Of a stretch of DNA of 64,000 bases, positions 7,349 through 62,752 are shown one piece after another (position 1 is the stretch's first letter; each line of letters begins with the position of its first letter). The notes under the pieces were generated by a model. That model saw only the letters and a program-made list of their open reading frames with translations, was not told where the DNA came from and did not search any database. The translations under genes and the position numbers were made by a program. This DNA is from Nitrospirota bacterium (GTDB taxonomy: Bacteria > Nitrospirota > Thermodesulfovibrionia > Thermodesulfovibrionales > Magnetobacteriaceae), in contig JADFXG010000012.1 in NCBI GenBank assembly GCA_015233895.1, forward strand, positions 1 to 64,000, written 5' to 3'.

Positions 7349-8542
7349 TCATTTTTTTGGCCATTTCTTAAGTGACTGCTGTGTTTCTATATCTGATTTC
7401 AGTCCAAGAATGCTCAGATAAAAGCTTGAAATAATGATCAGAATTCCCACAGTAAGAGTGGTGACAGCAGGTATCGTAATGCGCATCATCATGGCAGCGT
7501 TTAACTTTCCAAAGGCTGCTTTGCTCCAAAGTTCAACTGCATACACAGAGCTTACAAGTCCTATTAATGTAAGCAGCATTCCCAGAATTATGCCTTTTTC
7601 AAGAGTGAAAGATTTAACAATTTCTATAAAACGATCGTTATCCGGAACAAGCTTTGAGTTTATTGCAAATACTTTTGAAAACAGCGCAAACACAACGGAC
7701 TGTACGCCAATTATTATCGCAGCAGATGCGTAAAGCATGGTGTGTATATCAAGATTGGCGCCCAGAAATGGCATAGGGCCCCGCATAATCAGTGCATTTA
7801 AGAGTGTGCCGATAAAAATCATCAGTATTCCCGGGTACAGAAAAAGCCACCTGGGGCTGAAAATTAGGAGAAATCTGAGATAACGCCATCCGTCACGAAA
7901 ACTCCTCAGATGCGGTGCTCTGCTTCTGCCGTCAGGGGAAAGAGTGGTAGGAACCTCTGTTAGTTTAAGCTTAAACAGTGTTGCCTTGACAACCATCTCG
8001 CTGGCAAACTCCATACCAGGCGTTTGAAGGTTTATCTTTTCGATTGATTCTTTGTTAAAACCGCGGAGGCCGCATTGGAAATCTCTGACAGGACTTCTGA
8101 AAAACAACCGTCCTAAGCCGCTAAGGAAAGGATTCCCGAAGTATCTGTGAAGAGGAGGCATGGCGCCTTTTTTTATCCCGCCCTTAAATCTGTTTCCCAT
8201 TACCAGCTCATAGCCCTCACGAAGTTTTTCGACAAATGGCTCAAGATTTGTAAAATCGTAACTGTCATCACAATCGCCCATTATCACGTATTTTCCGTTT
8301 GCCTGCGCAATGCCTCCCATAAGAGCAGCTCCGTAGCCGCGTTCTTTTATATCAATTACCGTAGCTCCATGGCTTATGGCTATCTCTTTAGAGCCGTCCG
8401 TGCTGCCGTTGTCTGCCACCAGTACCTCAGCTGAAATTCCTGAGCGCTTTATAAATCCCATCGCTTTTTCTACACAGATACCCAGTGTTTCTGCCTCGTT
8501 AAGGCATGGCATGAGAATTGTCAGTTCCACCTTAGTGCTCAC
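7349..8542 (-). CDS. GT2 glycosyltransferase, dolichyl-phosphate-sugar-synthase-like, with membrane tail
   Basis: The 397-residue protein begins with a GT-A domain (about 5-225): L-T-I-L-M-P-C-L-N-E-A-E-T, then D-N-G-S-T-D-G-S, then the D-C-D-D-S-Y-D-F metal-binding motif, and G-L-R-G-F near the acceptor site. Four membrane helices follow (about 230-385). Such enzymes move a sugar from a nucleotide donor to a polyprenyl phosphate at the inner face of the membrane, supplying GT-C enzymes like its neighbours. It overlaps the upstream methyltransferase by 4 bases (ATGA type). Confidence 0.8.
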   Translation of the reverse strand: MSTKVELTILMPCLNEAETLGICVEKAMGFIKRSGISAEVLVADNGSTDGSKEIAISHGATVIDIKERGYGAALMGGIAQANGKYVIMGDCDDSYDFTNLEPFVEKLREGYELVMGNRFKGGIKKGAMPPLHRYFGNPFLSGLGRLFFRSPVRDFQCGLRGFNKESIEKINLQTPGMEFASEMVVKATLFKLKLTEVPTTLSPDGRSRAPHLRSFRDGWRYLRFLLIFSPRWLFLYPGILMIFIGTLLNALIMRGPMPFLGANLDIHTMLYASAAIIIGVQSVVFALFSKVFAINSKLVPDNDRFIEIVKSFTLEKGIILGMLLTLIGLVSSVYAVELWSKAAFGKLNAAMMMRITIPAVTTLTVGILIIISSFYLSILGLKSDIETQQSLKKWPKK

Positions 8543-23805: not shown

Positions 23806-24432
23806 CTACTTACGATATTTGTTTAGTTCCTCGACCAGTTCATGAACTGTTGTTGACGGATTATCTCGTTCAGGGTTTAAACCGTTAGGGTTGCTAGTCT
23901 TATGATGCTCTATTAATTTTTTAGCATTTATTATTGCGGTTGTCTGTCTATCTAATAGTGTGCTATACATACTTTTTGAGTTCTTTTCGTATTTAAATCC
24001 TAAGCGTGTTGTAAGCTTTTCTTTATACTGGTCTCTTGATAACCCTGCATCAATATAAGCGTAATGCAGCAAGTACCACAACTCAAAAGCCTCATTTGAA
24101 TAGGCAACACGAATATTACACTTTTTTGCTGAATCAATTGCTTTATTGAAATTTTCAGATGCAAAAGAGTCTTTGTCAAACACTACCCAGGTTATTTCAA
24201 AATCTTTTCCTTCTTTTTTGAGTTCTATTCGTAAATCTTTTGCTTTTTGCACTAAAGAGCAAGTGTTATATCCTGTGCCAATTATTTTAACATCTTGTAT
24301 ATTTATCAGACTATTATGAAGATCTTTCCGAAAACTCTCAAAATAATTCTTCTCTGTTTTTTCTCCTTCACAGACAATCAAAATTGTTTTGCTAACTTTT
24401 CTATAGTTTTGTTTGCGTTTTAAATTATTCAT
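23806..24432 (-). CDS. RloB-family protein (AbiLii-like), phage defence
   Basis: With the ATG at 24432 (M-N-N-L-K-R-K-Q-N) the protein has 208 residues and overlaps the upstream ATPase gene by 8 bases. It shows the RloB signature: T-I-L-I-V-C-E-G-E-K-T-E-K-N-Y-F with a Toprim-like glutamate, W-V-V-F-D-K-D-S-F, and S-N-E-A-F-E-L-W-Y-L-L-H-Y. RloB partners with an SMC-like ATPase in the AbiL abortive-infection arrangement. AT-rich like the other defence genes in the window. Confidence 0.8.
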   Translation of the reverse strand: MNNLKRKQNYRKVSKTILIVCEGEKTEKNYFESFRKDLHNSLINIQDVKIIGTGYNTCSLVQKAKDLRIELKKEGKDFEITWVVFDKDSFASENFNKAIDSAKKCNIRVAYSNEAFELWYLLHYAYIDAGLSRDQYKEKLTTRLGFKYEKNSKSMYSTLLDRQTTAIINAKKLIEHHKTSNPNGLNPERDNPSTTVHELVEELNKYRK

Positions 24433-25675
24433 TTGCCGTCTCATGTTCTTTAGTAAGTGTTGAGAAATCACCAATAAAAGGTACCGCCCCATATTTCCCC
24501 ATTATATAGTCTTTATTATACGAGGCATCATTTCTTACTTTAAATTCTACTAGAGAGTATAAGTCAGTAGCCCCATATCTGTCCTTTTCAGTAAACCAAA
24601 TCTGGTCTCTTCTAAAGTATTCCTTTTTTAACAAATTAGTGTCGTGCGTTGCCATTATAAACTGTGCATTTTTATTTTTGGTATTAAATATTTTAACTAA
24701 CTCTTTGGTTATTATTGGGTGTAACCTTGCATCCATCTCATCAATAACCAAAATTGTACCATCTGCAAGTTTCTCAAGTATTGGAGCTGATAAGGATATT
24801 ATTTTCAATGTTCCTTCAGATTCAAAATTTATTGGTAATTTAACATGACCACTTGCTTTCCTCTCATTATCGTATTTATTGTGTAAAGTGAAAGATAGTG
24901 ATGCGTCCTTTTCTAACAATGCCTTTCTTAATTCTTCTGGAAAATCTTCTGGAATTTGTTCTGCAGTTACCTTTATTTTTTCACTTTTAATATCCTCAAT
25001 TTGTAAATCAGCAATTTTTATAAAGTCTAAAATACTGTTCTTATTTGTTTCATCTTCAAGTTTTTTCAATGAATATGGCAAGATGCGCCTGTCATCTATC
25101 CCTGAAATTATGTTAACATTTGAAAACCAATTTGAAATATTAGTTGAGATTTCACCATTCCACTGAGCACAAACTGACAAAAACAAAGCGTTAGGACGAG
25201 TCCTCTCCTCTAAACCTTTGCCCTCCTTAAATTTAGGTTCTATGTTACCAAGCTCTCTTTTAAAAAGTTTCCTTTCCTTAGCTTTCAGACTTGAATAGAG
25301 CCATTCACTTTGGACTTTGCCTTTCAAAAGTTCAAAACCATATCTGTACCTTACTTCGCCTAACATGAAAATAATCTCAAAGTGTGAATTTCTATTTATG
25401 CTTTCTGTGTCAAAAAGAAAGGGATAACTAGTCTCTAACCATTTCTCATTTGCAGATTCCAATACACAGTTTCTCATGAAAGTTATTGATTTAATCAGAT
25501 TACTTTTACCGCTTGCATTAGCACCATATATGACAGCGCTTTTTAAGAGTTTTAGTTTAGGGTTAGGTGTGAGAATAAGGTGATCCGCATGTTCTTTAAC
25601 TGAGGCGGCAACCATGCTTAGTGTTACTTTCTTTTTAAAAGACAAATTGTTTGCTACGCTAAAAGTCACTAACAT
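24425..25675 (-). CDS. AAA15-type ATPase (RloA/AbiLi-like), phage defence
   Basis: The 416-residue protein has Walker A G-A-N-A-S-G-K-S (51-58), Walker B/D-loop L-V-I-D-E-M-D-A-R-L-H-P and a switch histidine in M-A-T-H-D-T-N-L-L. This is the ABC/SMC-type ATPase fold of AAA_15/AAA_21 proteins found in abortive-infection and OLD-like systems. It is the sensor or motor partner of the RloB protein directly downstream. Starts after TTATCC..AAATGAA sequence with a weak ribosome site. Confidence 0.8.
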   Translation of the reverse strand: MLVTFSVANNLSFKKKVTLSMVAASVKEHADHLILTPNPKLKLLKSAVIYGANASGKSNLIKSITFMRNCVLESANEKWLETSYPFLFDTESINRNSHFEIIFMLGEVRYRYGFELLKGKVQSEWLYSSLKAKERKLFKRELGNIEPKFKEGKGLEERTRPNALFLSVCAQWNGEISTNISNWFSNVNIISGIDDRRILPYSLKKLEDETNKNSILDFIKIADLQIEDIKSEKIKVTAEQIPEDFPEELRKALLEKDASLSFTLHNKYDNERKASGHVKLPINFESEGTLKIISLSAPILEKLADGTILVIDEMDARLHPIITKELVKIFNTKNKNAQFIMATHDTNLLKKEYFRRDQIWFTEKDRYGATDLYSLVEFKVRNDASYNKDYIMGKYGAVPFIGDFSTLTKEHETANE

Positions 25676-30381: not shown

Positions 30382-31302
30382 ATGATTCCTGATTTCCAGA
30401 CATTGATGCTTCCGATACTTTGTTTTTGTAAAGACCGAAAGGAACATAGAACAAGTGAGATAGTAGATTCTATTGCAAAGGAATTTAGTTTATCTGATGA
30501 TGAGTTAAATGACAGATATTCAAGTGGTCAAAAAATTCTATACAATAGAATTGGTTGGGCTGTGAACTATTTAAAAAAGGCATTATTAATAGAATCGAAA
30601 GGTCGTGGAGTAATAAAAATACTTGAGCGGGGATTGGATGCGCTAGGGCAAAATCCAGCTAAAATAAATTTGCCTTTTCTCAAAAAATATCCAGAGTTTT
30701 CTCTATTATTAAAGGGTATAGCTGATGATAAAAAGTCTGCAACGGTAGAGAAAAATGATAATGCAGAGTTTGAAGAAACAACCCCTGAGGAAATGATAGA
30801 GGACGGATATAAAAAGATTAGAAACGCACTGTCTGACGAGCTGCTTGATAAAGTTAAAGTATGTTCACCTAGTTTTTTTGAGATGTTGGTAGTTGATCTC
30901 CTTGTAAAAATGGGATATGGCGGCTCAAATAAAGAAGCTGGCAGGGCTGTCGGTAGAACGGGTGATGATGGAATAGATGGGATAATAAAGGAAGATCATT
31001 TAGGTCTGGACGTAATATATATACAGGCAAAAAGATGGGATAAAGTGTCTGTTAGTGTGTCGGAGGTCAGAAGTTTTGCCGGAGCTATGCTTCAAAAAGG
31101 TGCTAAAAAAGGAGTGTTCATAACAACTTCAAAATTCACGTCAGATGCTCTGTCTTATATTGAAAAATTGGGTGATACAAAACTAATATTGATAGATGGA
31201 GAAAAATTAACGGAACTAATGATGAATTTCAATGTTGGAGTAAAACTTTCAAGCTCCTACGAGCTTAAAAAAATTGATTCAGACTACTTTTCTGAGGATT
31301 AA
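30382..31302 (+). CDS. mrr: Mrr-family restriction endonuclease
   Basis: The 306-residue protein has the Mrr N-terminal winged-helix domain (about 3-90: P-D-F-Q-T-L-M-L-P-I-L) and the C-terminal Mrr catalytic domain. Visible active-site residues are Glu167 in F-F-E-M-L-V-V-D-L-L, Asp199 in G-D-D-G-I-D-G, and Gln215-Ala-Lys217 in Y-I-Q-A-K-R-W. Mrr enzymes cleave methylated DNA. It sits inside the carA-carB gap, next to HicAB, suggesting an inserted defence block. Confidence 0.9.
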   Translation: MIPDFQTLMLPILCFCKDRKEHRTSEIVDSIAKEFSLSDDELNDRYSSGQKILYNRIGWAVNYLKKALLIESKGRGVIKILERGLDALGQNPAKINLPFLKKYPEFSLLLKGIADDKKSATVEKNDNAEFEETTPEEMIEDGYKKIRNALSDELLDKVKVCSPSFFEMLVVDLLVKMGYGGSNKEAGRAVGRTGDDGIDGIIKEDHLGLDVIYIQAKRWDKVSVSVSEVRSFAGAMLQKGAKKGVFITTSKFTSDALSYIEKLGDTKLILIDGEKLTELMMNFNVGVKLSSSYELKKIDSDYFSED

Positions 31303-58420: not shown

Positions 58421-59269
58421 TTAGGTCAAGAAGGATTTTAAAGCATCGACAATTCTGTCTGTATCTATGAGATTCATGCAATGTTTCAACTTATCTAAAG
58501 AACATGGTATCGAATAGTTAATGTGGCTGTATCCAGGCTGTATGCATTTGTCGAAGAACTCGCACCTTTCTTCTCCTTTGATATGTACTTGACCGCAATA
58601 TCCATAAATCAAGCTGTCAGTAGGTCCCCAAAGAACTATGGCCGGAACTCCGGCATAATGTGCAGTGTGCATTATAAAATTATCAGACGTGATTACGACA
58701 TCACATTTATTTATAACGTTAATAAGACTGCGAGGAGTCGTTAGACCTATAATTGAGTATGTTCCTTTTATATACTGCTGCCCTAAACGTCCTGCTTGAA
58801 TTATAAGAGTGTCATCGGATTTGATTTTTTCTACGAATTCATGCCACTTGTTGAAATCCATTTCTTTACGAGGAGAATCAGACCATGGGGCTATCAAAAT
58901 ATTCTTATTTCGAAAGGGGATTATTGTATTTAATTCAAAATCGGTAGAAATTATATCTGGGAAATAGAGACGCTCTTCTACAGGAGTTTCAAGATTGAAA
59001 ATTCGAGCCAAAATCTGGAAGGCTCGACGATTCCCTTGTCCAAGAACCTCCTTACTCCAGTAGTCTGTTCCAATAATAAAAGCATCTTTGGGTGGAAATC
59101 CTACGTAAGAAATCGCAGGATGTCCTTTTAAAATACTCAAATATTTTGTCCGCCTAACCAAATTAAACTTTCGGGAAGGCTCTCTTTCGATGTCAAGTTT
59201 CAGGACTCCTGAAATCATAAGAGCATCGCCCAACCCGCCAATTGGGTTAATCCAGATATTTTCAGCCAT
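58421..59269 (-). CDS. GT9-type glycosyltransferase in the peptide-modification cassette
   Basis: From the ATG at 59269 (M-A-E-N-I-W-I-N) the protein has 282 residues; a second ATG 9 bases earlier is possible. It resembles the heptosyltransferase (GT9) fold: N-P-I-G-G-L-G-D-A-L-M at the start, I-L-I-A-P-W-S mid-protein, and V-I-T-S-D-N-F-I-M-H-T-A-H with V-L-W-G-P-T-D near the end. The usual W-x-P-x-x-W motifs are absent. Its place right after the radical SAM genes (gap 13 bases) suggests that it glycosylates the modified peptide rather than LPS. Inference. Confidence 0.7.
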   Translation of the reverse strand: MAENIWINPIGGLGDALMISGVLKLDIEREPSRKFNLVRRTKYLSILKGHPAISYVGFPPKDAFIIGTDYWSKEVLGQGNRRAFQILARIFNLETPVEERLYFPDIISTDFELNTIIPFRNKNILIAPWSDSPRKEMDFNKWHEFVEKIKSDDTLIIQAGRLGQQYIKGTYSIIGLTTPRSLINVINKCDVVITSDNFIMHTAHYAGVPAIVLWGPTDSLIYGYCGQVHIKGEERCEFFDKCIQPGYSHINYSIPCSLDKLKHCMNLIDTDRIVDALKSFLT

Positions 59270-59282
59270 ATCTACCATGAGA

Positions 59283-60380
59283 TTAAAACGTGAGCCCAGT
59301 TATAGGTTCAAAAAATTTTTCTATAAATCTCTTTTTTGATAAACACCATCGGGTTTTATGCACAAAATCTCCGTGTTCGTCATATGAGTCTAAAGGACAT
59401 CCACCGTGGCATATGCTCCAAAAGCGGCAATCCTTACAGTCCTTTTCCAACAGGATTTCATTGCGGCTGATCAACTGTCCACGTTGAGAATCGTAAAGTA
59501 TTTCATGAAGAGACCGGTCGAGTATGTTTCCATAAGAGAGTAAACCCCAGTCAGAGGACCTTCCACATTGGGATGTCTCACCGCGGGGATCAATATTTAC
59601 ATGGTTATAGGCACAATCCCCTGAATCGACACAGGATAGACTGAGAGCATCTCTTTTTGCATTTATCGAAAACGATTTAAATGGTTCGATTTCGTAATAT
59701 ATTTCTTTATATTTCCACCATACGGGAAATATTTCACCTAAAAAATCGGCATATTCATTGGGGGTTATGGCTATGTCTTTAATCTCACTGTCATAGATGA
59801 GCACTTGATTTAAATTAATCCCCCCATTAATGAATAAGTTAGTCAAATAGTAGAATATATCTAAAGGTCTTTCAAGTGATCTTTTTGTAACTACATAGAT
59901 AATTCCTACGTTAAAAGCAGATTCACGTGATAACTTTAGCCCACTGAGAAACATCTTGTTATAAATCTCAGAATCGATATTTTTACCAGGCCCTCTTACG
60001 TTTTGAATAGGGTCGTAACTTGACCCTAAATGACCTATACCCATTTTCTTAAATATTTCCAAAAAATCCTTCGATAAAAGGGTGAGATTCGTTTGAATGT
60101 TGTGATTTATACGGGATAAAGTAGCAGTACAATGCTTTTCCTGTATATCTAAAGCCGTTTTAAAAAAATCCACACCCAAAAGCAGTGGTTCGCCTCCATG
60201 CCACAAAACCGTTATATTATCATCAGGATTCGACATTAAAAAGGTATTTATTCTCGAAAAACACACATCCAGGATTTCATAAGACATTATCGGGGTGGTT
60301 GAAGGCTTTCTACGGACTACGTCGCAGTATATACAATTAGAGTTACATTTTTCCGTTGCTTTTAGAATTATAGTTGCCAT
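59283..60380 (-). CDS. Radical SAM/SPASM enzyme (peptide maturase-like)
   Basis: The 365-residue protein has the radical SAM motif C-x3-C-x2-C at Cys12, Cys16, Cys19 (K-C-N-S-N-C-I-Y-C), G-G-E-P at 62-65, and a full SPASM domain with eight cysteines (250, 256, 272, 315, 318, 324, 328, 346), enough for two auxiliary [4Fe-4S] clusters. This is the anSME/peptide-maturase layout. It overlaps the gene before by 13 bases. It probably changes side chains of the repeat peptide, such as by C-C, C-S or C-O bond formation or oxidation. Reaction unknown. Confidence 0.8.
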   Translation of the reverse strand: MATIILKATEKCNSNCIYCDVVRRKPSTTPIMSYEILDVCFSRINTFLMSNPDDNITVLWHGGEPLLLGVDFFKTALDIQEKHCTATLSRINHNIQTNLTLLSKDFLEIFKKMGIGHLGSSYDPIQNVRGPGKNIDSEIYNKMFLSGLKLSRESAFNVGIIYVVTKRSLERPLDIFYYLTNLFINGGINLNQVLIYDSEIKDIAITPNEYADFLGEIFPVWWKYKEIYYEIEPFKSFSINAKRDALSLSCVDSGDCAYNHVNIDPRGETSQCGRSSDWGLLSYGNILDRSLHEILYDSQRGQLISRNEILLEKDCKDCRFWSICHGGCPLDSYDEHGDFVHKTRWCLSKKRFIEKFFEPITGLTF

Positions 60381-61144
60381 AGTTGGTTTGAATCACTTGT
60401 TCTTTTTTTATAGTAGTATTCTGCGGCTTCCAAAACATCCACAAATAACTTTTGACAACCGTATTTCTGGTTTGATGAGTCGGGAAATTTACCTAAACAT
60501 ATCCGCCAGCCTTGGCAATAAGCGCATCCCTCTGGCTTAAGAAAAAAATCTTCACGAGACAGTAGCCTTTCGTGAAACAGCGATAATATTCCGAAACTGC
60601 TTATATGAAAATATCTTTCGGGGTCGTTAAAATAAACCGCACCATAATCGATATATTTTCCTCGTTCATAATTTAACAATAAATAACCGAAAGGTTCGAT
60701 TTGTCCACGTGAAACCATGCCGTAAACTGCGTAATGCATCAGATCGTTAACCGATTCCCAATCGGGATTTTTACGGTCGAAGACAATTCCACAAGCTATA
60801 CCTAAAGATGATAATATCCTTAACCCTGAAAATGTTTCGCTATCGCTCTCAGGCAAAAAAACTCTAATATTTAGTTTTCTAAACATTTTTATTTTCTTAA
60901 TAAAATCAGAAATCTCACCAATCCCCGGCGTATATAATGCTATCGGTATATCTGCATATTCTTCATAAATCGTCAATGAATCGAGTTTTTTCGGGTAATT
61001 AATCATTATACAATGTAATCTGTTATTTTCATTTACAGCATTGGCAACGGCTATTATTTCGGAAAAAGCATCATATCGTATTACCAGTGTTTCGTTTCTG
61101 AAGCGGTCTATCAGAGCCTTATCGAAGGGGCAGCATTTAATCAT
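60368..61144 (-). CDS. SPASM-like partner protein without radical SAM motif
   Basis: The 258-residue protein follows the first radical SAM gene with no gap (TAA then ATG). It has an alpha/beta barrel-like sequence but no C-x3-C-x2-C at its start. Its C-terminal C-A-Y-C-Q-G-W-R-I-C (207-216) and Cys230 resemble the end of SPASM domains. Radical-SAM-less SPASM partners are known in some peptide systems (e.g. the GeoRSP type). It could bind the leader peptide or carry one auxiliary cluster. No closer family recognised. Confidence 0.6.
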   Translation of the reverse strand: MIKCCPFDKALIDRFRNETLVIRYDAFSEIIAVANAVNENNRLHCIMINYPKKLDSLTIYEEYADIPIALYTPGIGEISDFIKKIKMFRKLNIRVFLPESDSETFSGLRILSSLGIACGIVFDRKNPDWESVNDLMHYAVYGMVSRGQIEPFGYLLLNYERGKYIDYGAVYFNDPERYFHISSFGILSLFHERLLSREDFFLKPEGCAYCQGWRICLGKFPDSSNQKYGCQKLFVDVLEAAEYYYKKRTSDSNQLWQL

Positions 61145-62170
61145 TTATATTTTCCCTGTCTCATCTGAAATTACGTACATTTCATCCAAACGTATAGGGG
61201 GCTCATCCCTAAATGACGATAAGATATGAGCTTTGCATCCTCCATGGCAAAGGCCGTTTTCACGATAAACACAATCGTCACAGCGCTCGAAAATGCCGCA
61301 TGCTTCTGTCTGGATTTTTGAAAACAGATCGTTATAATATTCTATTACTTCACTAAAAGAATTAAATTCAAAGAGAGATTTCTTATGAAAAGACGACAAA
61401 GGAAAACACGGCCATACCTCCATGTCGGGTCCAATATCGATAGCCGGTACGCAGTAAAACCTGAAATCTCCCGTTGTTAACCTGTACATCTGGCCCAGTT
61501 GATTGTCGTTAAGTGCACACATTGGGAAACCACAATCGAAAGCTGGTTTTATCCTTAATTCCTTAAAAATATCAAAACAAGACGATAACCGCTTTATTAT
61601 ATTATCAAAGCTGCCAATATCAACGTAGATATTATCCTTTCCAACAATCCTGTGGGCTAACCCTAAACGAAGTACACGAATCATGCCATACATATTTATT
61701 GCCTGGAACAGGAAATTCATATCAAAATCATTTCTGTAGATATTAAATCCGGCAATCGTACGGTTTCCGAAATGTTCCAGGAATCGCTTTACACTGACTG
61801 TTTCGGCTACAGGAGATAGTGCTGGGTCGTTAAGATTGCAGACAAATGTCAATCTGCCCATTGGAACGTCTTCAAGTGTTTTTATCGATTTACTTAGCTT
61901 ATCTTTAGTCATGATACCGCTTGTAAAAACGCTGACGTCAAACCCACGTTCTATGAGATAAACTACAAAATCGTTAAAGGAAGGGTGCAGTGTAGGCTCC
62001 CCCCCAAGCAAAGACAGATGGCGGTGCCCTGAACACTCAAGCAAATCGGCAATATAGATTAAGTTCTCCCACGACAGCATCTTGTCTGAGGTACTGTTTT
62101 CCATATGTTTTAAAGCAAAACAATACGGACACTTGCGAACGCATTGCTGCGTTAAAAGAACGTTTGCCAT
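61145..62170 (-). CDS. Radical SAM protein with divergent cysteine-rich tail
   Basis: The 341-residue protein has C-V-R-K-C-P-Y-C (Cys10, 14, 17) and G-G-E-P at 56-59. A later set of cysteines (213, 218, 240, 255, 291, 297, 300, 308, 312), including C-D-D-C and C-H-G-G-C, is SPASM/Twitch-like. It is the first enzyme after the precursor gene (68-base gap) and adjoins the SPASM-only gene. With the second radical SAM enzyme it makes a two-maturase cassette. Confidence 0.75.
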   Translation of the reverse strand: MANVLLTQQCVRKCPYCFALKHMENSTSDKMLSWENLIYIADLLECSGHRHLSLLGGEPTLHPSFNDFVVYLIERGFDVSVFTSGIMTKDKLSKSIKTLEDVPMGRLTFVCNLNDPALSPVAETVSVKRFLEHFGNRTIAGFNIYRNDFDMNFLFQAINMYGMIRVLRLGLAHRIVGKDNIYVDIGSFDNIIKRLSSCFDIFKELRIKPAFDCGFPMCALNDNQLGQMYRLTTGDFRFYCVPAIDIGPDMEVWPCFPLSSFHKKSLFEFNSFSEVIEYYNDLFSKIQTEACGIFERCDDCVYRENGLCHGGCKAHILSSFRDEPPIRLDEMYVISDETGKI

Positions 62171-62238: not shown

Positions 62239-62589
62239 CTATGAGCAGCTTCTGTACAAAAAGTAACGACCGCTGCTGCTGTAGCAGCTGCTGCTGTTGT
62301 AGGAACCGCTGCTGCTGTAGCCACTGCCGCTGTTGTAGGAACCGCTGTTGTAGGAACCGCTGCTGCTGTAGCGACTGCTGCTGTAGTGACTGCTGGAATA
62401 TGCACTGTTATATGCTGTAAGATTACTATCCTCAAACTGGTGCGCCTCGCCATTCCTATCTGCAACCGAACCTTTCGCTAATTTGGGTAAGCACAGAACA
62501 CTCGATGCTCCTAAAACTCCTAATGCTATACGCTTCAGAGCCTCACGCCTGATCATTTGCTGATCTTCTTTTTTCTTTTTATCGTCCAT
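62239..62589 (-). CDS. Candidate RiPP-like precursor peptide with Tyr/Ser/Gly repeats
   Basis: The ATG at 62589 lies 9 bases after GGAGG and gives 116 residues; a TTG 6 bases earlier is a weaker choice. Residues 1-11 are charged; residues 12-40 (R-R-E-A-L-K then a hydrophobic run, L-P-K-L-A-K-G-S) look like a twin-arginine export signal. The tail from about residue 58 is almost only Tyr, Ser, Gly, Asn: tyrosines at 60, 64, 69, 74, 80, 85, 91, 97, 103, 109, 112, each mostly followed by S-S-S or N-S. No Pfam-type domain recognised. Context suggests it is the substrate of the radical SAM genes downstream. Confidence 0.75.
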   Translation of the reverse strand: MDDKKKKEDQQMIRREALKRIALGVLGASSVLCLPKLAKGSVADRNGEAHQFEDSNLTAYNSAYSSSHYSSSRYSSSGSYNSGSYNSGSGYSSSGSYNSSSCYSSSGRYFLYRSCS

Positions 62590-62619
62590 AGTCAAAAGCC
62601 TCCATTATTATATGATTAT

Positions 62620-62640
62620 TTCTCCTTCCATTAAGGAGAA
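62620..62640 (-). promoter_or_regulatory. Leader hairpin before the precursor gene
   Basis: TTCTCCTT (62620-62627) and AAGGAGAA (62633-62640) form an 8 bp stem with 5-base loop in the transcript, about 25 bases before the ribosome site. Its AAGGAG-like strand could compete with, or mimic, a ribosome site. Role unknown. Confidence 0.5.
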
Positions 62641-62723: not shown

Positions 62724-62752
62724 ATTTTACATAAAAATGAAAAGAATGTCAA
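62724..62752 (-). promoter_or_regulatory. Promoter of the peptide cassette
   Basis: On the minus strand TTGACA (62747-62752), 17 bases, then an extended -10 TG-TAAAAT (62724-62729). It places the start near 62717, leaving a leader of about 125 bases. The oppF gene ends upstream at 62840 with a short TATGCAA/TTGCATA hairpin (62817-62833), so the cassette is a separate unit. Confidence 0.75.

Follow-up and report, generated by a model that had tools for sequence, protein, structure and literature searches.

Sec signal peptides are a rare feature of RiPP precursors (PMC12452194), which agrees with the premise of the first-pass annotation of the locus described here that most such precursors have soluble leaders. 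In the bufferins and other MNIO RiPPs with signal peptides, and in the recently described lipidated RiPPs (DAG-RiPPs), the peptide is modified in the cytoplasm and then exported by means of a cleavable signal peptide, in some cases with a lipobox (PMC12452194, PMC12636315). Bufferins use Sec for this step, and any RiPP with a signal peptide must somehow avoid being exported before it has been modified (PMC12452194). Neither paper mentions Tat, and in the open-licence literature that we searched there was nothing relevant on the combination of Tat, RiPPs and radical SAM enzymes, nor a description of the gene cassette reported below, which appears to represent a hitherto undescribed family of enzyme-modified and exported peptides.

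Whereas the bufferins, MNIO RiPPs and DAG-RiPPs have Sec or lipoprotein signals and MNIO enzymes, this cassette has radical SAM enzymes and a twin-arginine leader, and a Pfam scan of its four non-precursor proteins returned radical SAM, SPASM, GT9 or nothing, with no MNIO (DUF692) maturase. Also comparable are the cyclophane radical SAM/SPASM systems (GrrM/OscB, DynA, DarE, YhhB, AmcB), to whose enzymes the second radical SAM protein of the cassette is a full-length relative and which are similar in having repeats with aromatic-x-x motifs; the cassette differs from them in its two radical SAM enzymes and pseudo-enzyme, its Tat-like leader and a precursor that matches no precursor family. The His-Xaa-Ser system (HxsA/HxsB) likewise has a radical SAM maturase for a target peptide with repeats; there is no His-Xaa-Ser array in our precursor. 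Finally, the autotransporter heptosyltransferase TibC (PMC4358343) resembles one part of the cassette in its GT9-like fold, its four Cys near the C-terminus and its Ser-bearing exported repeat substrate.

A five-gene cassette and its relatives

The cassette lies on the minus strand of the window, by which we mean the whole stretch of 64,000 nucleotides analysed. Its first gene encodes the precursor (62239-62589, 116 residues, ATG at 62589, homologues at 13 other cassette loci), with a GGAGG ribosome binding site at 62599-62603, and is followed by the genes for radical SAM 1 (61145-62170, 341 residues), a pseudo-radical-SAM/SPASM partner (60368-61144, 258 residues), radical SAM 2 with SPASM (59283-60380, 365 residues) and a GT9-like (heptosyltransferase-like) protein (58421-59278, 285 residues). 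The genes are closely packed, being adjacent, overlapping by 13 bases or separated by a gap of 4 bases. An oligopeptide ABC transporter ATPase gene upstream and a rnpA/yidC-like region downstream seem unrelated, and neither an ABC exporter nor a RiPP protease or leader peptidase was seen within the cassettes. A sigma-70-like promoter (TTGACA-17-TAAAAT, 11/12) at 62724-62752 on the minus strand is a consensus match only, the promoter scan having performed no better than chance (15 sites found, 15.6 expected). Just upstream of the precursor GGAGG there is a perfect 8-bp hairpin, TTCTCCTT-AATGG-AAGGAGAA (62620-62640, minus strand), the stem of which contains a second SD-like AAGGAG. Elsewhere in the window we noted by eye an AAA-type ATPase and RloB-like pair (23806-25675, minus strand) that is possibly a defence module, and Mrr-like restriction genes at 371-1858 and 30382-31302.

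Radical SAM 1 and the middle protein served as queries for relatives in about 1,700 genome scans, some of them overlapping, and in one collection scan. The same gene set occurs at 14 further loci (15 with the window), which belong to Bacteroidota, to a deltaproteobacterium and to the phylum of the window itself. L021 and L022 are from Muribaculaceae and Bacteroides, and L053-L057 and L079 come from the order and phylum to which the L022 genome belongs. L023 is the deltaproteobacterial locus, and L024, L025, L042, L043 and L044 are from the family, order or phylum of the window. Wherever the contig permits, HMMs for the four partners match in the same order (the contig of L079 ends within the middle protein), and a Tyr-repeat precursor is present at 13 of the 14 further loci, or 14 of 15 with the window, the exception being L054, where the contig ends. 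Only one of the four sampled genomes of the window's genus carries the cassette, which leads us to believe that it has been gained or lost often.

Several other loci touch on this family. Radical SAM 1 relatives at L003/L026 (G064), L058 and L072 were set aside because they have no matching cassette. At L067 (4024-10339) there is a sister system, in which the neighbours of a Tat-type lipoprotein precursor with SYSDY repeats are a relative of radical SAM 1 and two ORFs that match the profile of radical SAM 2. Radical SAM 1, radical SAM 2 and a weak relative of the middle protein stand in a row at L070 (1215-4422) and L071 (4513-7595), and within these two intervals no recognisable Tyr-rich precursor was found. 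In L021 (9913-10599) and L022 (9155-9868), the closest of the Bacteroidota loci, a conserved ORF of 228-237 residues directly follows the precursor; a proteasome/Ntn-hydrolase label suggested by eye was dropped, as the ORF has no Pfam match and the L021 copy no NCBIfam match.

The precursor and its leader

The translation of 62239-62589, which begins MDDKKKKEDQQMIRREALKRIALGVLGASSVLCLPKLAKGSVADRN and ends TAYNSAYSSSHYSSSRYSSSGSYNSGSYNSGSGYSSSGSYNSSSCYSSSGRYFLYRSCS, confirms the observation that a twin-arginine-like leader and a repeat core occur in one peptide. Four Lys are followed by RREALKRIA, a 14-residue hydrophobic stretch, PKLAKG, a spacer and a 57-residue tail. The Tat-like motif RREALKR occupies residues 14-20 (62530-62550, minus strand), and the hydrophobic h-region, IALGVLGASSVLCL, which precedes PKLAKG, lies at 62488-62529 (minus strand) and has a mean Kyte-Doolittle value of 2.27. 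Among the 107 ATG ORFs of at least 60 residues in the six frames of the window, the precursor alone has RRxxxK and a hydrophobic run near its N-terminus; on sequence grounds, this pattern is in excess of chance, and homologues in distant bacteria keep its motif. We consider the ORFs that overlap the precursor in other reading frames of the repeat to be ghosts, because the conserved leader sits only in the precursor frame. The window's genome yielded no further copy of the leader, and the precursor matches no NCBIfam or Pfam family above cut-off.

For comparison of leaders we assembled 16 precursors, from 14 cassette loci (L056 has two) and from the sister system L067. In 14 of the 16, from several phyla, RR stands directly before the hydrophobic run, which supports the description of the leader as twin-arginine-like. 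The longer pattern RRxA[LIFM][KI]R[IMA][AG] is matched by 13 of them; the full leader motif appeared in none of 32,000 shuffled leaders, whereas RR alone appeared in 21% of shuffles. The window leader has Ala where SRRxFLK usually has Phe. L067 has SRREFIEK, a textbook Tat form, together with a lipobox (SGC), and lacks the KR-I-A part; a lipobox (LSGC) is also present in L043. By eye, the hydrophobic run is followed in most precursors by an AxA-like or lipobox site, for instance ADA|Q in L021 and AHA|G in L079, and several have K/R ahead of the cleavage site, which is a known Sec-avoidance feature of Tat signals.

Two members depart from this pattern. The L057 leader reads KKKEALKRMA, with KK replacing RR, an intact hydrophobic run and an ANA site. 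L025, a second cassette copy (7606-7920, minus strand) in the same genome as L024, has CR for RR in xRDAIKRIA, the Cys codon TGT being one transition from the Arg codon CGT, and an Arg that breaks its hydrophobic run; these two changes lead us to think that this leader may be decaying. Both retain the flanking A-x-K-R-[I/M]-A, which suggests two overlapping constraints on the leader, RR and the h-region being kept for export and A-x-K-R-[I/M]-A for another role, probably recognition by the maturases.

Is the leader, then, a Tat signal? The claim that it sends the peptide through the Tat pathway gains from the conservation of RR, whereas the NCBIfam Tat-signal model TIGR01409, which gave 10.9-15.0 bits in three homologues, stayed below its cut-off of 16.7. 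TatC (PF00902) is above cut-off in each of the 14 genomes that carry the cassette, G000 among them, as well as in the L067 genome, although this is weak evidence without discriminating power because 124 of 149 genomes (83%) in one carrier order also encode it. The leader might instead be an ordinary Sec signal or membrane anchor, in which RREALKRIA served purely for maturase recognition and RR was incidental. The L057 leader fits such a reading, and so do the loss of RR in L025, the conservation of A-x-K-R-[IM]-A beyond what the Tat consensus requires, and the use of Sec by known exported RiPPs such as the bufferins (PMC12452194). We regard it as unlikely, since 14 of 16 precursors, from several phyla, retain RR, since distant L067 has RR though it lacks the KR-I-A part, and since several leaders carry K/R ahead of the cleavage site, which speaks against Sec. 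The outcome that the first-pass annotation had named as pointing to Sec or an anchor, retention of the hydrophobic run with loss of RR, was encountered once, in L057. To judge from the leaders, it is quite probable that most family members use Tat; because L057 has KK and L025 CR, Tat is likely for most but perhaps not all of them.

The repeat core

The core of the window precursor (62242-62412, minus strand) has 57 residues, of which 27 are Ser and 11 Tyr. Its Tyr spacings are 4, 5, 5, 6, 5, 6, 6, 6, 6 and 3, so that the growth from 4-5 to 6 noted previously holds along the tail until the last spacing. The underlying DNA is an imperfect tandem array with periods of 18 (6.4 copies) and 36 (3.3 copies). 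Composition varies widely among the cores, the extremes being 47% Ser in the window and 66% Tyr in L053; for instance, the L056 core consists of YNYYNYSYSD repeats and that of L079 of GYGVSGDY repeats. Over the whole precursor set, Ser/Asn is found at positions +1 and +2 from Tyr 1.4-2.0 times as often as expected from composition.

Repeat number varies as had been anticipated for a repetitive core. Apart from an indel of 24 residues, the cores of L021 and L022 are nearly identical (their leaders share RREALKRMAK and have diverged hydrophobic runs), and the two paralogous precursors of L056 differ in length.

The putative maturation enzymes

Radical SAM 1 (Pfam PF04055, E 8e-12) has a CxxxCxxC motif and a C-terminal Cys set that is invariant in alignments of the family. 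It matches no NCBIfam equivalog above cut-off, and its similarity to MoaA, PqqE, SkfB and viperin is N-terminal only. Radical SAM 2 is DynA/anSME/GrrM-like: it scores 46.4 bits against the NCBIfam SPASM model TIGR04085 (cut-off 27) and aligns end to end with anSME in a PDB profile search (E 2e-29), whereas it falls below the NCBIfam cut-offs of DynA (155.9 of 450 bits), DarE (124.4 of 650), GrrM (102.5 of 310) and HxsB (77.2 of 370).

The 258-residue middle protein has four conserved C-terminal Cys and no CxxxCxxC. It gave no Pfam or NCBIfam match, no usable PDB sequence match and no Foldseek match below 1e-3, its fold being given only by VIA-align: the AlphaFold2 model (pLDDT 87) is a radical-SAM barrel with a SPASM remnant and matches anSME (4k39, Z 10.1), CteB (5why, 9.7), ChlB (9gmc, 9.5) and TigE (8vpo, 8.6), with rmsd of 3.9-4.7 over 222-239 residues. 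Because this model has the radical-SAM fold without CxxxCxxC, the protein most likely serves as a non-catalytic partner.

In the PqqA and mycofactocin systems it is Tyr that is modified, and radical SAM 1 is weakly similar, at its N-terminus, to PqqE and to mycofactocin maturase models. It is conceivable on these grounds that the precursor is the source of a small redox cofactor excised from the peptide, as are PqqA and the mycofactocin precursor. We consider this very improbable, given that single-site cofactor precursors do not resemble long cores of many repeats behind an export signal and that the cassettes have no recurrent partner peptidase or dehydrogenase. The first-pass annotation had spoken of a cofactor-modified peptide, and for this part of its interpretation we found no support, whereas the Tat-like leader and the variable repeat core beside radical SAM genes, on which it also drew, are both conserved.

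The GT9-like protein (PF01075, 25.5 bits) has four conserved Cys after its C-lobe in the alignment, and its model has a heptosyltransferase fold (Z 20.2-17.6; 3tov 20.2, WaaF 19.4, WaaC 18.0, TibC 17.7). TibC has an N-terminal beta-barrel (residues 1-97) and a four-Cys iron finger (PMC4358343). Our model aligns only to TibC residues 91-388, over 265 residues, with the barrel missing, and its Cys set recalls the iron finger but differs in spacing; a sequence-profile search did not recover TibC. Having the GT fold and four Cys but no barrel, the protein falls outside the BAHT class. GT9 is absent in L022 and L057 and is short and divergent in L021. The three cores that lack an intact GT9 also have the smallest Ser fractions (0.09-0.10 versus 0.13-0.47 elsewhere), a suggestive trend with few independent cases, involving three loci of which two are closely related. 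In L044 (2135-4159) radical SAM 2 and the GT9-like protein are fused in a 674-residue ORF, with the precursor after it on the opposite strand.

These features raise the alternative that the product is chiefly a surface protein, rich in Ser/Tyr, glycosylated and exported, like the heptosylated autotransporter repeats, the role of the radical SAM enzymes being minor or separate. The GT9 fold with its four C-terminal Cys and its alignment to TibC, the Ser-rich core and the L044 fusion are all consistent with it. That the sequence profile missed TibC and that L022 and L057 lack GT9 yet keep both radical SAM genes and the partner make it improbable.

A model for modification and export

The anatomy of the cassette, its gene order and conservation, the variation of its repeats and the predicted folds of two of its partners are established. 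Taken as a RiPP system, it presents a small precursor in a conserved maturase cluster (15 loci, with the precursor at 14) and, within that precursor, a leader and a variable core. We return to the reading that we favour, and lean to the view that the cassette is RiPP-like, its repeat core being modified in the cytoplasm and its leader then acting as a Tat signal for export.

How leader recognition, modification chemistry, glycosylation and Tat use would combine to give the product an extracytoplasmic location and function we infer as follows. The precursor would be synthesised in the cytoplasm, where its leader, probably including the A-L-K-R-I-A part, would tether it to a complex that the two radical SAM enzymes form with their pseudo-radical-SAM partner, the partner holding the leader. 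These two enzymes would act on the Tyr/Ser/Asn repeats, the likeliest chemistry being crosslinking of side chains or oxidation, at Tyr or at adjacent residues, and the GT9-like enzyme, where present, would probably add a sugar, plausibly on core Ser. The same leader, now as a Tat signal, would take the rigid modified peptide across the membrane and would be cut off by signal peptidase I, or by signal peptidase II in members with a lipobox. Because signal peptidase would remove the leader, a dedicated transporter or protease would be unnecessary. A more ambitious version, to which we give slightly less than an even chance, is that of a multi-phylum RiPP family in which a Tat-signal leader doubles as the docking site of the maturases, export being limited in this way to finished, rigid, crosslinked Tyr-rich repeat peptides, often glycosylated and some of them lipoproteins.

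Tat transports folded, finished cargo, and a Tat leader would therefore prevent export before modification. It would thus resolve the premature-export problem of signal-peptide RiPPs, the reported ones being Sec-dependent. In addition, the family combines two radical SAM enzymes, a radical-SAM-like partner that probably lacks catalytic activity and a GT9 enzyme with substrates of up to 66% Tyr, and this combination of enzymes on such extreme Tyr repeats makes new crosslinking or glycosylation chemistry plausible.
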